NCBI GenBank assembly: GCA_026989095.1
Contig: JALSKA010000009.1
Span: 1-33,401 of the forward strand
Reading direction: 5' to 3'
Origin: Ardenticatenaceae bacterium
GTDB lineage: Bacteria; Chloroflexota; Anaerolineae; Ardenticatenales; Ardenticatenaceae
Length of the DNA stretch: 33,401 nucleotides
In this document: in pieces, positions 2,770 to 10,859 of the stretch
How positions within the stretch are numbered: the first letter of the stretch is position 1
Layout: each line of letters begins with the position of its first letter
Notes under the pieces: generated by a model
Told to the model about the DNA's origin: nothing
The model's database searches: none
The model's input: the letters and a program-made list of their open reading frames with translations, nothing else
Position numbers and translations under genes: made by a program

Positions 2770-3525
2770 ATGAGATATCTCATCATCTCCGACATCCACG
2801 CCAACTTGGTGGCCTTGGAGGCCGTCCTGGGGGTTGCCGAGGTTCAGGGGTTTGACGAGGTGTGGTGTCTTGGCGACATCGTGGGCTACGGGCCCGATCC
2901 CAACGAGTGTGTGGCCGCAGTCCGGGAGGTGGCGAGCATCGTGCTGGCCGGCAACCACGATTGGGCGGCCCTCGGCAAGTTGGACGTGAGCGACTTCAAC
3001 CCCGAGGCCCGCCAGGCCGTGGAGTGGACTCAGGAGCAGCTCAGCGACGAGAGCCGAGCCTATCTGGAGGAACTTCCCCCCCGCCTTGATCAGGTGGCCG
3101 AGCTCTTCACCCTGGCCCACGGGAGCCCCCGTCACCCCATCTGGGAATACATCGTCTACCCCTCGACGGCCGCCGAGAACTTCGACCACTTCGAGACGCC
3201 CTTCTGTTTAGTGGGCCACACCCACCAGCCGGTCCTCTTCCGCCGCGACCCGGAGGACGGCGCCGTCCAAGCGCTGATGCCCGCCCTCGAGTACCCCCTG
3301 CCCCTCCGCCGGGCGGCCGAGCAGGGCGTGCGCCTCATCATCAACCCGGGCTCGGTGGGCCAACCCCGTGACGGCGACCCGCGCGCCAGCTTCGCCATCT
3401 ACGACGCCGAGGCCGGCACTCTCTCCTACTACCGCGTGGCCTACGACGTCGCCGAGACCCAAGCCCGTATGCGCGCGGCCGGCCTGCCCGAACGCCTCGT
3501 GGCGCGGCTGGAGTACGGCTGGTAG
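2770..3525 (+). CDS. calcineurin-like metallophosphoesterase (YfcE/MJ0936-like)
   Basis: 251 aa from ATG 2770. All metal-binding blocks of the superfamily are present in order: SDIHAN (residues 7-12), GDIVGYG (about 36-42), GNHDW (about 60-64), an AHG block, and GHTHQP (about 151-156). The GDxxGYG version is typical of the compact bacterial phosphodiesterases related to MJ0936/YfcE; the natural substrate cannot be told from sequence. The frame is open further upstream, but a good AGGAGGA lies about 12 bases before 2770 and the protein motif starts immediately after this Met, which decides the start. The gene stands alone between divergent and downstream promoters. Confidence 0.9.
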   Translation: MRYLIISDIHANLVALEAVLGVAEVQGFDEVWCLGDIVGYGPDPNECVAAVREVASIVLAGNHDWAALGKLDVSDFNPEARQAVEWTQEQLSDESRAYLEELPPRLDQVAELFTLAHGSPRHPIWEYIVYPSTAAENFDHFETPFCLVGHTHQPVLFRRDPEDGAVQALMPALEYPLPLRRAAEQGVRLIINPGSVGQPRDGDPRASFAIYDAEAGTLSYYRVAYDVAETQARMRAAGLPERLVARLEYGW

Positions 3526-3581
3526 CGCCGGGCACCCGAGCACACCCGCCTGCAAACGACGATGCGTTCCCACACGCCATG

Positions 3582-3598
3582 AGGCGTTTGACACGCCT
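3582..3598 (+). promoter_or_regulatory. inverted repeat spanning the S1-gene -35 box
   Basis: AGGCGT (3582-3587), loop TTGAC, ACGCCT (3593-3598), followed by TTT. The -35 hexamer TTGACA starts in the loop. It may be a weak terminator for the metallophosphoesterase transcript or an operator over the promoter; the sequence alone does not decide. Confidence 0.4.
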
Positions 3599-3616
3599 TT
3601 TCCCTTCCAGTATAAT
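3588..3616 (+). promoter_or_regulatory. consensus sigma-70 promoter of the S1-domain gene
   Basis: TTGACA (3588-3593), exactly 17 bases, TATAAT (3611-3616): a perfect match to the vegetative sigma factor consensus, and the strongest promoter in the window. Transcription would start near 3622-3624, leaving an untranslated leader of about 285 bases before the S1 coding region. Confidence 0.85.
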
Positions 3617-3622
3617 ACGCCC

Positions 3623-3909
3623 ACACTTTGCCAGCCCGAAAAAGGGAGCCCGCTCGAGAGTGCTTTGCGCGTCGCGTTGGTATGGTGCCGCTTATGAACA
3701 GGTAAGGCCGCACTCACGGCGACAATCCAAAGCGGTCCACCGACAAAGCGCGTCCGCTGTGGCGCGCTTTGTCGGTGAGAGGGAGCACTCCGTGAACGAC
3801 TCGGGCACCATCGGCTCGCACAGCGGTGGACGGCCGAGTCGTTCTGTTCTCCAGACGGGACCCCGGGGTGGCAGAGGAAAACTTCTTTCAAGGAAATGAG
3901 GTGCCAAAG
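3623..3909 (+). ncRNA. long structured 5' leader RNA of the S1-domain gene
   Basis: No protein-coding gene fits here. Hairpin A: 15 perfect base pairs, 3738-3752 with 3763-3777, apical loop of 10. Hairpin B: 11 perfect base pairs, 3794-3804 with 3834-3844, enclosing a 29-base loop. Bases 3754-3761 (CCGCTGTG) in loop A are the exact reverse complement of 3819-3826 (CACAGCGG) in loop B, so the two can kiss. A competing 8-bp helix joins 3735-3742 (GTCCACCG) to 3824-3831 (CGGTGGAC) and would break hairpin A's base. Upstream, GAGTGC (3658-3663) could pair with GCACTC at either 3710-3715 or 3785-3790. There is no U-run after the hairpins, so this is not a simple terminator. I recognise no known riboswitch class; an S1 autoregulatory leader is the simplest guess. 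Confidence 0.6.
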
Positions 3910-5166
3910 GTGAACGAATTTACAGGAGCCCAGCAGGACAAAGAGACGTCGCCGATGTGGCAATATCTGGAACACGAGGAGTACAATTACCAGGCACCGT
4001 CCCCGGGGGACATCCGTGAAGGGGTCATTCTCAAGAAGACGAACTACGAAGTTCTCGTTGACTTGGGCCTGAAGCGCGAGGCCGTGGTGCCCTACCGGGA
4101 CATCCAGAAGCTCTCCCCCGAGGAGTTCGAGGCCTTGGCCGAGGGCGAACGGGTGCGGGTCTTCATCCTGCCCAACGAGGACGAGGAGGGGCGCCGTCTC
4201 GTCTCCATCAACTTGGCCCGCGTCCGCGAGGATTGGGAACGGGCCAAGGCCATGCACGAGGCGGGCGAGCTCTTCGAGGGCGAGGTCATCGGCGCCAACA
4301 AGGGCGGAGTGATCGTGGCCTTCGGCAGGCTGCGGGGCTTCGTGCCGGCCTCCCAGCTCGTCCGGCTCCCGCCCCAGCGCGAAGGGCAATCCCACCAGGA
4401 GCGGCTCAAGGGCCTTGTGGGCCGGCAGTTGACCGTGAAGGTCATCGAAGTGGACCCCCGTCGTCGCCGCCTCATCCTCTCCGAACGAGCAGCCCACCGC
4501 GAGCGGCGGGCCGCCCAGCGCGAGAAGCTGTTGGCCGAGCTCCAGCCCGGCGACGTGCGCCGGGGCACGGTGACCAACCTGCAATCCTTCGGCGCCTTCG
4601 TGGACCTCGGGGGCGCGGACGGGCTCATCCACGTCAGCGAGTTGGCCTGGTACCGGGTGAAGCACCCCCGTGAGGTGCTCCAGGTGGGCCAGGAGGTCGA
4701 AGTCTACGTGCTTAACGTGGACCGGGAGGAGAACCGTATTGCCCTCAGCCTCAAGCGCCTCCAGCCCGACCCGTGGATGCAGGTGGCCCAGAAGTACAAC
4801 CGTGGGGACACCATCGAGGTGGAGATCACCAACGTGACCAGCTTCGGTGCCTTTGCTCGCGTCGAAGAGGGCGTCGAGGGGCTGATTCACGTCTCGGAGC
4901 TCTCCCACGAGCCCGTCGAGAGCCCAGCCCAAGTCGTCCGTCGTGGCCAGCGGCTGCGGGTGCAGATCATCAGCATCGACCCGGACCGACAGCGCATTGG
5001 GCTGAGCCTGAAGCGCGTCGAGGAGCAGGCCTTTCCGGAGCCAGAGGGCAGTGAGGTGGATGCCCGGCCGGCGGAGGAAGAGGCGCCCTCCGGCCACGGC
5101 GATGTCCCCCAGGAGCAGGCCGACGACAACCACGCCGTGGCCGCCGGCCTCAACGCCGAACAGTGA
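3910..5166 (+). CDS. rpsA: S1 RNA-binding domain protein (short ribosomal protein S1 type)
   Basis: 418 aa from GTG 3910. There are four S1 (OB-fold) domains at about residues 33-104, 118-192, 212-283 and 297-369, the third and fourth carrying the classic SFGAF...GLIHVSEL core, then an acidic Glu/Pro-rich tail. Four domains is the form seen outside Proteobacteria, where full S1 has six; such proteins help mRNA bind the 30S subunit. Start choice: GAGGTG at 3898-3903 lies 6 bases before GTG 3910; GTG 3901 and ATG 3955 are alternatives. The gene lies behind a consensus promoter and a structured leader, upstream of rpsU, which supports a ribosomal role. Confidence 0.85.
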   Translation: MNEFTGAQQDKETSPMWQYLEHEEYNYQAPSPGDIREGVILKKTNYEVLVDLGLKREAVVPYRDIQKLSPEEFEALAEGERVRVFILPNEDEEGRRLVSINLARVREDWERAKAMHEAGELFEGEVIGANKGGVIVAFGRLRGFVPASQLVRLPPQREGQSHQERLKGLVGRQLTVKVIEVDPRRRRLILSERAAHRERRAAQREKLLAELQPGDVRRGTVTNLQSFGAFVDLGGADGLIHVSELAWYRVKHPREVLQVGQEVEVYVLNVDREENRIALSLKRLQPDPWMQVAQKYNRGDTIEVEITNVTSFGAFARVEEGVEGLIHVSELSHEPVESPAQVVRRGQRLRVQIISIDPDRQRIGLSLKRVEEQAFPEPEGSEVDARPAEEEAPSGHGDVPQEQADDNHAVAAGLNAEQ

Positions 5167-7749: not shown

Positions 7750-8217
7750 TCACGCTTCCCTCGGGGCCACGTGGCCCAACCCGAGCCGCCCCATGATGTG
7801 CGCCTGCCGAGCCCACATCCGCGACCGGGCCTCGGGTTCCTCGTCGTCATATCCCAGCAGGTGTAACACGCCGTGGACCACGAGCAAGTCCACCTCGTCT
7901 TGGGGCGCGTGCCCCATTTCCCCGGCCTGTCGGGCCGCCTGCGGCCAAGCAATGACGACGTCACCCAAGTACTCCCCCTCCTCATCGCCCCCCGGCAGGG
8001 GATCAAAAGGAAAGGTCAACACGTCCGTCGTCCCCGCCTCGCCCCGGTAGGCCACGTGAAGCCGCTCCATTTCGGCGTCGTCCACCACTACGACTGTGAG
8101 GGCCACCGGCCGGTCCACCCCTTCCGCTTCCAGGGCCGTGCGCGCGGCACGGACCAGCCGGCGCCCGTCAACCCGAGTGCTCAACGAACCGGTGATCTGG
8201 AGATGGAGCTGAAGCAT
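7750..8217 (-). CDS. ybeY: endoribonuclease YbeY (rRNA maturation factor)
   Basis: 155 aa from ATG 8217 (a TTG at 8226 would add three residues). It contains YRGEAGTTDVLTFPF (residues 57-71), matching the family's Arg-containing block, and HGVLHLLGYDD at 115-125. YbeY is a zinc enzyme acting in 16S rRNA 3'-end processing and 70S quality control; its metal is usually held by three histidines in HGxLHLxGYDH. Here the third position is Asp125, not His; Asp can bind zinc, so activity is possible but not assured. The reading frame overlaps the end of pgpH by about 50 bases and shows no clear Shine-Dalgarno, suggesting coupling to pgpH translation. It converges with the gene ending at 7739, 10 bases away. 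Confidence 0.88.
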   Translation of the reverse strand: MLQLHLQITGSLSTRVDGRRLVRAARTALEAEGVDRPVALTVVVVDDAEMERLHVAYRGEAGTTDVLTFPFDPLPGGDEEGEYLGDVVIAWPQAARQAGEMGHAPQDEVDLLVVHGVLHLLGYDDEEPEARSRMWARQAHIMGRLGLGHVAPREA

Positions 8218-10354
8218 GGGCGTCAACCGTTTGGGAGGGCGTGTTCGCCCGGCCAGCCTCGTTGGGCGTTGGGTAGAGCACGCGCGTGTGGTACATGCCG
8301 GAGAGTGTGGTCACAAAGGCTTGGCGGATCAATTCGAGGTCGCGCAGCGTCAGGTCCGTGTTCACGAGCTGGCCCTCGTCCAGCTTCTGCTGAATGATGC
8401 GACAGACGAGCCGGTCGATGGCCTCCACGTCGGCGGGCTTCTCCGCCCGCACCGTGGCTTCCACCGAGTCGGCCAGCATGAGGATGGCCGTTTCCCGCGT
8501 CTGCGGGCGCGGGCCCGGGTAGCGGAACTTGGCCTCGTCCACGTTCTCGGGGCCGTAACGCTCACACGCGCGGCGGTAGAAGTACTCCACCCGCGTGGTC
8601 CCGTGGTGCTCCTGGATGAAATCCACAATCCGTGCCGGCAGCCGGTGCTTGCGCGCCAGGCGCACCCCCTCTGTGACGTGGCGGATGATGATCCGGGCGC
8701 TCTCCTCGGGGTCGTCCAGCTCGTCGTGGGGGTTGGCGGGGCCGGTCTGGTTCTCCACGAAGTAGTGGGGGGCCGAGAGTTTGCCGATGTCGTGGTAATA
8801 GGCGGCCACGCGCACCAGGAGGGCGTCGGCACCGATGGCCTCGGCAGCCCGCTCGCCCAAGTTCCCGGTCATGATCGAGTGGTGGTAGGTGCCGGGCGCC
8901 TCGACGAGCAGGCGCTTGAACAGCGGGTGAGTTGGCCGGGCCAGCTCCATGAGCTGGAGGAAGGTGGTCACCCCGGCAAAGGTGGAAAGGACGTAGAAGC
9001 CGGCCAGCGTGAGGCTGGCGCTCAGGGCACCGTTCGTCAGGGCCAGGCCGCCGCGCAAGGCCAGCGCCAGGGGCGACCAGCTCGTCTCCTGGAGGGCAAA
9101 GGCCAGGACAACGCCCAAGTTCGTGAGCCCCACGAAGAAGCCGGCGGAGACAAAGCCCTGCAAGCGCTCGACGCGCCAGAGGACCAGGGCGGCCACGCCA
9201 CTGCCCACCAGGGCATAGGTCGCCAGCTCGAAGGAGCCCGTGAACTGCATGACCAGAAAGGCCAGCAGGGTGGAGGCGAGTAGCGCCACGTCCGGCCCGG
9301 CCAGCATGGCCAACAGCATGGCCGCCGAGGCCGTGGGGGTGAGGTAGGCCAAGAAGGAATGGTCGGGCATCATGATGCGAATAGCGCCCGCCGTCAGCCC
9401 CAACGTCATGGTCAGCGCAGCCATCATGCGGTGATGGGTCCAGACGTGAGGGTGAACGCGGGCCACGTAGAAGCTGAAGAGCAGGGTCAACAGCGTCACC
9501 ACCAGGCCCACGCCGATCAGCCGCTCCCGGGTAACGGCGGCGCTCTGGAGTCCCAGGGCCTCGAGCGCTTCGATGTGTTCGGGCTGGATGATCTCCCCCT
9601 CGCGCACGATGATCTGGCCCTGTTCGTAGGTGACCTGCACGTCAGGCACGCTGCGGCGGGCGTTCTCGCGGGCCTCCTCGGTCTTGGCCTCGTCGGGGAA
9701 GCTGTTGGGCTGCAGCAGGGCCGAGACCCATTCGGTGACCACGCGAGTCTGGTCGCTGTCGAGGGTGACGTTGACCTGGGAGGCGATCTGACGGCGAACG
9801 GCTGGGAGCTGATCTTCCCGAATCTGGCGGCGGTTCAACCGCTCGAGGAGGCGCTGCGTTTCCTCGACGACAGCCTCCCATTCCTGTTCGGTGAAGTCGA
9901 GAATGGCCTCGATAGCCTGTTCGGAGAATTGGACCGGCTCCAGCCCGGCAATGCGCTCCACCTTCTCGGCACGCGAGATGGTGGAATCGTCGCGCACTTT
10001 GGTGATGAAGTCGGCCACCTGGCGCGCGGTGGCCAACTGTTTGATGGCCAGGGCCCGGTCAGGCGGGGTGTAAATGGTGGCCACACTGGCGGCAGCAGCC
10101 TCGCGGGCCTGCTGGGTGCGCACCTGGCTCACGAAGGTGATGCGTCGGGGCGCGCGGATGTCCTGTGGGCTCACGCTCCCCACCTTCAAGGTGGCCGACG
10201 GGGACGGATCGACCACGACGACGGCCAACAGAACGCCCACCAGCAGCGCCGTCCACACGAGGCCCTGGAACTGCTGGCGCAGGGAGAGGGTTGGGGAGGC
10301 CGGGCGGATTGTTTGGGACGAGCTGGACGTGTACATGGCTTCGAGGTGAGACAT
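8168..10354 (-). CDS. pgpH: 7TMR-HD family membrane HD hydrolase (PgpH-type c-di-AMP phosphodiesterase)
   Basis: About 728 aa from the ATG at 10354 (10336 is an alternative; the open frame reaches 10441, but that part overlaps yqeY). One N-terminal membrane helix at about 25-45, an extracellular 7TMR-HDED domain to about 285, then a bundle of membrane helices to about 470, and a cytoplasmic HD domain with YHHSIMTGNL, YYHDIGKL (about 516-523) and EHHGTTR. This is the architecture of PgpH, which hydrolyses cyclic di-AMP to pApA; the HD and downstream His/Asp residues look intact. It sits between yqeY and ybeY. In many bacteria phoH lies in this cluster, but it is absent here. Confidence 0.9.
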   Translation of the reverse strand: MSHLEAMYTSSSSQTIRPASPTLSLRQQFQGLVWTALLVGVLLAVVVVDPSPSATLKVGSVSPQDIRAPRRITFVSQVRTQQAREAAAASVATIYTPPDRALAIKQLATARQVADFITKVRDDSTISRAEKVERIAGLEPVQFSEQAIEAILDFTEQEWEAVVEETQRLLERLNRRQIREDQLPAVRRQIASQVNVTLDSDQTRVVTEWVSALLQPNSFPDEAKTEEARENARRSVPDVQVTYEQGQIIVREGEIIQPEHIEALEALGLQSAAVTRERLIGVGLVVTLLTLLFSFYVARVHPHVWTHHRMMAALTMTLGLTAGAIRIMMPDHSFLAYLTPTASAAMLLAMLAGPDVALLASTLLAFLVMQFTGSFELATYALVGSGVAALVLWRVERLQGFVSAGFFVGLTNLGVVLAFALQETSWSPLALALRGGLALTNGALSASLTLAGFYVLSTFAGVTTFLQLMELARPTHPLFKRLLVEAPGTYHHSIMTGNLGERAAEAIGADALLVRVAAYYHDIGKLSAPHYFVENQTGPANPHDELDDPEESARIIIRHVTEGVRLARKHRLPARIVDFIQEHHGTTRVEYFYRRACERYGPENVDEAKFRYPGPRPQTRETAILMLADSVEATVRAEKPADVEAIDRLVCRIIQQKLDEGQLVNTDLTLRDLELIRQAFVTTLSGMYHTRVLYPTPNEAGRANTPSQTVDAHASAPSPDHRFVEHSG

Positions 10355-10403
10355 TTCAACCGTGGGCGGCGGCACGAGGCGGCCCACTCGCGCGGCCCGC
10401 CCC

Positions 10404-10859
10404 TCACCCGGCTCGTCGGGCCAGGAGCTCCCGCACCACACGCTGGACTACAGCGCCGTCGGCGCGGCCGCGCAGTTTGGCCATGAGGGGGCCCATGACC
10501 TTGCCCATGTCCTTGGGGCCGGTGGCCCCCACGGCCTCGATCTGGGCCAAGGCCTCCTGCCGAATTTCCTCCTCGCTCAACATTCGGGGCAAGTAGGATT
10601 CGATCACGGCCAGCTCGGCCTCTTCTTCCTGGACCAAGTCCTGCCGCCCGGCCGCACGGTACTGCTCGATGGACTCGCGGCGCTGTTTGGCCTGCTTCTG
10701 GAGGAGCACCAGCATCTCCTGCTCCGTGAGCTCGCCGCCCTTGGCAATCTCGGCGTTTCGGACGGCGCTCAGGAGCAGGCGCACGGTGTTCCGCTTGACG
10801 GTGTCGCCGGCCTTCATGGCCGCCTTCAAGTCACGCTGCAACTTGGCTTTGAGGTTCAT
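10404..10859 (-). CDS. yqeY: GatB/YqeY domain protein
   Basis: 151 aa, the standard length for free-standing YqeY. It begins MNLKAKLQRDLKAAMKAGD and contains RLLLSAVRNAEI and GPKDMGKVMGPLM, the conserved features of the tail-like domain also found at the C-terminus of GatB, the amidotransferase subunit for Gln-tRNA/Asn-tRNA. The role of the free-standing form is unsettled; tRNA binding is the usual proposal. GAGGAG lies upstream of the ATG. It is 12 bases after the HIT gene and 49 bases before pgpH. Confidence 0.9.
   Translation of the reverse strand: MNLKAKLQRDLKAAMKAGDTVKRNTVRLLLSAVRNAEIAKGGELTEQEMLVLLQKQAKQRRESIEQYRAAGRQDLVQEEEAELAVIESYLPRMLSEEEIRQEALAQIEAVGATGPKDMGKVMGPLMAKLRGRADGAVVQRVVRELLARRAG

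Follow-up and report, generated by a model that had tools for sequence, protein, structure and literature searches.

A candidate transcription attenuator in the leader of a ribosomal protein S1 gene from Chloroflexota

The window analysed here, a stretch of 33,401 nucleotides from an Ardenticatenaceae bacterium (Chloroflexota, contig JALSKA010000009.1), contains a gene for ribosomal protein S1 with a long leader RNA, and from the comparison of related sequences we consider it fairly likely that this leader is a transcription attenuator. The attenuator is probably autogenous, and these Chloroflexota relatives probably set their S1 levels via the passage of RNA polymerase through a terminator. 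The comparison supports a consensus promoter, two hairpins (A and B), a terminator position common to the class and a helix competing with the terminator; termination at hairpin B in the species of the window and the direction of the switch are what we infer from these elements. S1 is the largest of the ribosomal proteins and the principal one in mRNA binding. An attenuator of the terminator type that accompanies one S1 paralogue and is lacking in the other would reveal how S1 levels are adjusted in a distant phylum, and the conserved CUCGG core of the terminators is a concrete, testable element.

The S1 gene (3910..5166; this and all leader coordinates refer to the plus strand) starts with GTG at 3910 and encodes a protein of 418 aa with four S1 domains (PF00575 x4). 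Although the match (E 1e-102) stays below the model cut-off, the top NCBIfam model is 30S ribosomal protein S1. The protein is 87% identical to the S1 of an Ardenticatenia MAG, likewise from the Chloroflexota, and a scan of the genome contigs revealed a single close relative and a single unrelated S1-domain match. A Shine-Dalgarno sequence, GAGGTG (3898-3903), is located 6 nt 5' of the GTG. The sigma-70-type promoter (3588..3616) is, as an earlier note on this DNA had described it, an exact match to TTGACA-17-TATAAT, and an identical promoter is found 280-350 nt 5' of S1 in five related genomes (G005, G004, G001, G002 and G006). Judged from this promoter the transcript has an untranslated leader of ~287 nt (3623..3909), in agreement with the about 285 nt given before.

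Only three leaders, those of the window and of two further members of its genus (G005 and G004), can be aligned over their full length and make up the genus comparison. Other orthologous leaders come from a sister genus (G001 and G002) and from the same order (G006). The leader of the window folds more stably than its shuffles (z = -5.0). A repeat or mobile element as its origin was ruled out by the single copy in its own genome, the palindrome of hairpin A itself aside.

Hairpin A (3738..3777) has the 15 perfect base pairs that were originally reported. The loop of 10 nt did not hold, as folding adds two pairs (17 bp, -31.6 kcal/mol) and leaves about 6 nt, CGCUGU. Hairpin B (3794..3844, arms GACUCGG/CCGAGUC) is a perfect 11-bp stem, just as claimed, with -29.5 kcal/mol, and is proposed to be an intrinsic terminator. 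Its inner stem (3808..3829, pairing 3808-3813 with 3824-3829) is kept in three species, with U-G in the window and G005 and C-G in G004. The U-rich tail, UUCUGUUCU (3842..3850), contains 6 U in 9 positions and is weaker than the U4-U8 of the relatives. Covariation in orthologous leaders, proposed in the earlier note as the test of its reading, is seen in both hairpins as paired double changes in G004 (A-U to G-C in hairpin A, C-G to U-A in hairpin B). By this comparative evidence hairpins A and B are real RNA structure.

S1 genes were found in 373 of the 396 genomes searched across the class, and about 130 upstream regions were inspected. In 51 cases a strong promoter lies at least 190 nt upstream. 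Intrinsic terminators lie between promoter and gene in 36 of these 51 long-leader genes, compared with 3 for the reverse strand and 1.95 for shuffles; at a stricter threshold the numbers are 27 against 1 and 0.3, respectively. A terminator is absent from all 23 short-leader S1 genes, although the leaders are shorter here and the power lower. The 5' arm contains CUCGG in 25 of the 36 class terminators, as it does in hairpin B, which shares their place and scores among the orthologue terminators by sequence, though its own U-tract is weak. The pattern CTCGGC-N12-42-GCCGAGTTTT occurs once per genome in nine genomes, each time directly 5' of S1; in three other genomes it matches at another place. 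In the sister genus the positions of A and B are taken by hairpins followed by U6 and U4, and in G006 a hairpin is followed by UUUUUAUUUU. Tandem terminator-like hairpins (U6, then U4) are seen 5' of S1 in the leaders L012 and L013, where the Shine-Dalgarno and start of a leader ORF are complementary to the segment between the two hairpins.

S1 leaders of family f69, which belongs to another class of the phylum, likewise terminate in a hairpin followed by U6. Three of these leaders (L193, L194, L195) have perfect promoters and a terminator GCGCC...GGCGC-UUUUUU, and in L194 and L195 an upstream copy of UAGGCGC could pair with a terminator arm.

In a tree of 44 S1 proteins every long leader falls outside a well-supported clade of short-leader paralogues. 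The leader labels require five changes on this tree, and none of 500 shuffles was as low. On this evidence the putative attenuator accompanies the S1 group of the window and is absent from the short-leader paralogue clade. Its distribution is patchy. The expectation that the leader precedes S1 in related genomes was borne out in the same genus, in the sister genus and in G006; G003, a member of the same family, has no recognisable leader of this kind, and in a sister genus of G250 the S1 leader is very short and lacks this architecture. In G001 and G002 (L021 and L022) a third S1-domain gene is preceded, within about 300 nt, by a leader, its TTGACA/CATAAT promoter and a strong terminator (AAGCCAGTTCCC...GGGAACTGGCTTGTTTTGTT), apparently another attenuator-like leader of an S1-type gene.

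All helices common to the three genus members were enumerated. Among those with strict Watson-Crick pairing, the longest one kept in the three species joins 3682-3689 (AUGGUGCC) by 8 pairs to 3804-3811 (GGCACCAU), the top of the 5' arm of hairpin B and part of its loop, and includes one compensatory change from A-U to G-C in G004. Of 1500 column shuffles only 2 gave a helix as long as 8 bp, and with false pairing rules the maximum was 4. The helix crosses hairpin B and consumes its top pair and its inner stem; 3682-3689 is proposed as the antiterminator strand and 3804-3811 as the switch segment. The U-to-C change in G004 also strengthens the inner stem of hairpin B, where U-G becomes C-G. The next-longest helix, again Watson-Crick in the three species, has 6 bp and joins 3804-3809 to 3900-3905 at the S1 Shine-Dalgarno (GAGGUGCC, 3898..3905). 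The sequence GGCACC at 3804-3809 can therefore choose between a partner in the early leader and another at the gene.

In the sequence of the window taken alone the 8-bp helix is ordinary when compared with leader shuffles (p = 0.17). The antiterminator fold is less stable by 5-7 kcal/mol before completion of the terminator and by 12-14 kcal/mol afterwards, and the predicted pairing probabilities of its helix are about zero. Being energetically disfavoured, the antiterminator would therefore need kinetic or ligand help. Most of the 17 leaders in family f36 carry GGCUGAGU at the 5' end, and this box complements the 5' arm of their terminator (10/17 with p<0.05). A combined test of all leaders for their best uninterrupted helix with the terminator arm gave p = 0.02 only, and therefore no single class-wide antiterminator sequence is claimed. 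As f36 uses a 5' box of its own, antiterminator sequences appear to vary by lineage, with the terminator core constant. RNAduplex runs of whole leaders against terminators returned gapped duplexes only and were uninformative.

The antiterminator strand overlaps the start of a candidate uORF (3682..3705, ATG GTG CCG CTT ATG AAC AGG TAA, MVPLMNR), which has a weak Shine-Dalgarno and keeps its start and stop positions in the three genus members; in G004 it reads MVPLMND with a GTG start. In the proposed mechanism RNA polymerase would start at the strong promoter, transcribe about 170 nt and reach hairpin B as the putative intrinsic terminator. Pairing of 3682-3689 with 3804-3811 while the RNA emerges would disturb hairpin B and lead to read-through into S1, and occupation of 3682-3689 would let hairpin B form and transcription stop. 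The likeliest occupant would be S1, alone or 30S-borne, binding at the weak uORF start, and ample S1 would then result in less S1 synthesis. We tentatively take S1 protein, alone or on the 30S, to be the signal, and direct or 30S-borne S1 is ranked first, ahead of uORF initiation. In that second form, for which we see only a small chance, the uORF with its poor ribosome-binding site would be initiated only when S1-loaded 30S is plentiful, and the ribosome would hide the antiterminator strand, so that hairpin B forms and transcription stops. If true, the attenuator would sense initiation factor activity and not work by protein-operator recognition.

The conserved 5' domain could in addition form a small H-type pseudoknot (3671..3736), which is a candidate target of S1. 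S1 is described to bind U/AU-rich sites and pseudoknots (PMC10931766). Both helices of this possible pseudoknot (3671-3675/3719-3723 and 3687-3692/3731-3736) can be formed in all three genus members; their pairs are invariant and therefore give no covariation test.

The earlier note had interpreted the leader as a switch based on a kissing interaction between hairpins A and B. The complementarity on which it is based is exact: 3754-3761 in loop A (CCGCUGUG) matches 3819-3826 in loop B (CACAGCGG) over 8 nt, in the window as well as in G005. The chance of about one in a thousand given for it is near our own arithmetic for one loop pair (0.1-0.3%), but the match was chosen post hoc and is not conserved. 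G005 is uninformative on this point, because both of its loop sequences are identical to those of the window. In G004 both hairpins persist, yet loop A reads UCUUCGAAGA and finds no complement in loop B. As G004 drops the loop-A half without compensation, and the conserved inner stem of hairpin B consumes part of the partner, a kissing interaction is unsupported; with about 6 nt left in the folded loop of hairpin A as well, we regard it as extremely improbable. The helix that was suggested as a rival to hairpin A, 3735-3742 (GUCCACCG) with 3824-3831 (CGGUGGAC), is exact, and 5 bp of it (3737-3741/3825-3829) are kept in each of the three genus members; the data, however, favour 3682-3689/3804-3811. 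The general idea of mutually exclusive folds in a conserved S1 leader is supported. A metabolite riboswitch with the conserved 5' domain (3671-3741) as aptamer would fit near-invariant blocks in the genus that lie 5' of a terminator. However, this domain is unrecognisable in the sister genus and in other families that retain the terminator, and the leader matches no Rfam family, consistent with the initial impression that no known riboswitch motif is present: at gathering score no Rfam covariance model matched the leader of the window or 27 relative loci, and a relaxed threshold gave chance-level matches only. We consider a riboswitch very unlikely.

Two other explanations keep the same elements and assign them another role. 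In a leader-peptide or uORF-coupled attenuator, ribosome occupancy of the tiny uORF would choose the fold and read translation capacity, not direct S1 binding. The overlap of the antiterminator strand with the uORF start fits this view, and clear leader ORFs with a ribosome-binding site are found in G001 and G002 (AAGGAG-ATG; MRTHGRHLR and MCICGRHSR), where the segment preceding the terminator offers a pairing partner for Shine-Dalgarno and start, and in family f26. The f26 leaders (L055, L060, L061) contain a conserved ORF, MKH(F/L)WKPxGLN, in which several third-position changes are silent, and the hairpin right after it could sequester an antiterminator; this leader is itself a candidate leader-peptide attenuator on S1. 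Strong combinations of Shine-Dalgarno and start are present in 41% of the leaders and in 22% of shuffles, a modest enrichment on which a uORF universal to these leaders was rejected. Many leaders have no convincing ORF, the peptides are lineage-specific, the Shine-Dalgarno of the uORF in the window is weak, and a run of one regulated codon is found in none of MVPLMNR, MRTHGRHLR, MRAVLKNCSP and MKHFWKPKGLN. Weighing these points, we judge uORF coupling rather unlikely. Alternatively, control could be translational only, with S1 or RNA folding blocking the S1 ribosome-binding site and hairpin B serving as a scaffold. In the window and G005 the GGCACC of hairpin B can indeed pair with the GGUGCC at the S1 Shine-Dalgarno, and the S1 autoregulation known from gamma-proteobacteria is translational (PMC10931766). 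But the GGUGCC of G004 is more distant from the start codon and does not serve as Shine-Dalgarno there, and the terminator is a feature common to the class, which makes purely translational control improbable.

Attenuation of ribosomal-protein genes is already known. The rplJL leader of B. subtilis (L10(L12)4 attenuation, PMC4538822) resembles the S1 leader in belonging to a ribosomal-protein gene with its own promoter, a long leader, a terminator and an antiterminator; protein and RNA differ, and autoregulation by the ribosomal protein is reported there, while for S1 it is our suggestion. Also in the infC-rpmI-rplT operon of B. subtilis, attenuation proceeds by alternative folds including a terminator (PMC10931766), but the protein is L20 and not S1, and no Rfam relation was found. 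The rpsA operator of E. coli and other gamma-proteobacteria is likewise a structured S1 leader with S1 itself as likely regulator. The likeness to it drawn in the earlier note is not supported, since that operator is translational, lacks a canonical Shine-Dalgarno and offers AU-rich single-stranded targets (PMC10931766), whereas the Chloroflexota leader has a canonical Shine-Dalgarno, GC-rich stems and the terminator-like hairpin B at a position found class-wide. With leader-peptide attenuators of the trp/ilv type the S1 leader shares a short ORF before the terminator and competing helices; it differs in having no regulatory codon run, in a uORF poorly conserved between lineages and in its ribosomal-protein target.

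In a review (PMC10931766), autogenous control of S1 appears solely as translational control in gamma-proteobacteria. An rpsA leader is absent from the main texts of a 2020 list of ribosomal leaders, of a 2010 motif survey and of a 2024 survey. No paper on S1 attenuation, Chloroflexus included, was found in the literature searched, whose coverage mostly excluded subscription journals; an S1 attenuator was not found in Rfam or in that literature.

Two further observations concern the minus strand of the window. A 641-aa ORF (3208-5133) runs antisense to the S1 gene and its leader; it is likely a by-product of the high G+C content and not a gene. At 8168-10441 a membrane protein of the 7TM-HD family (7TMR-HDED, 7TM and HD domains) is encoded, which we take to be PgpH-like, judged by its domain architecture.
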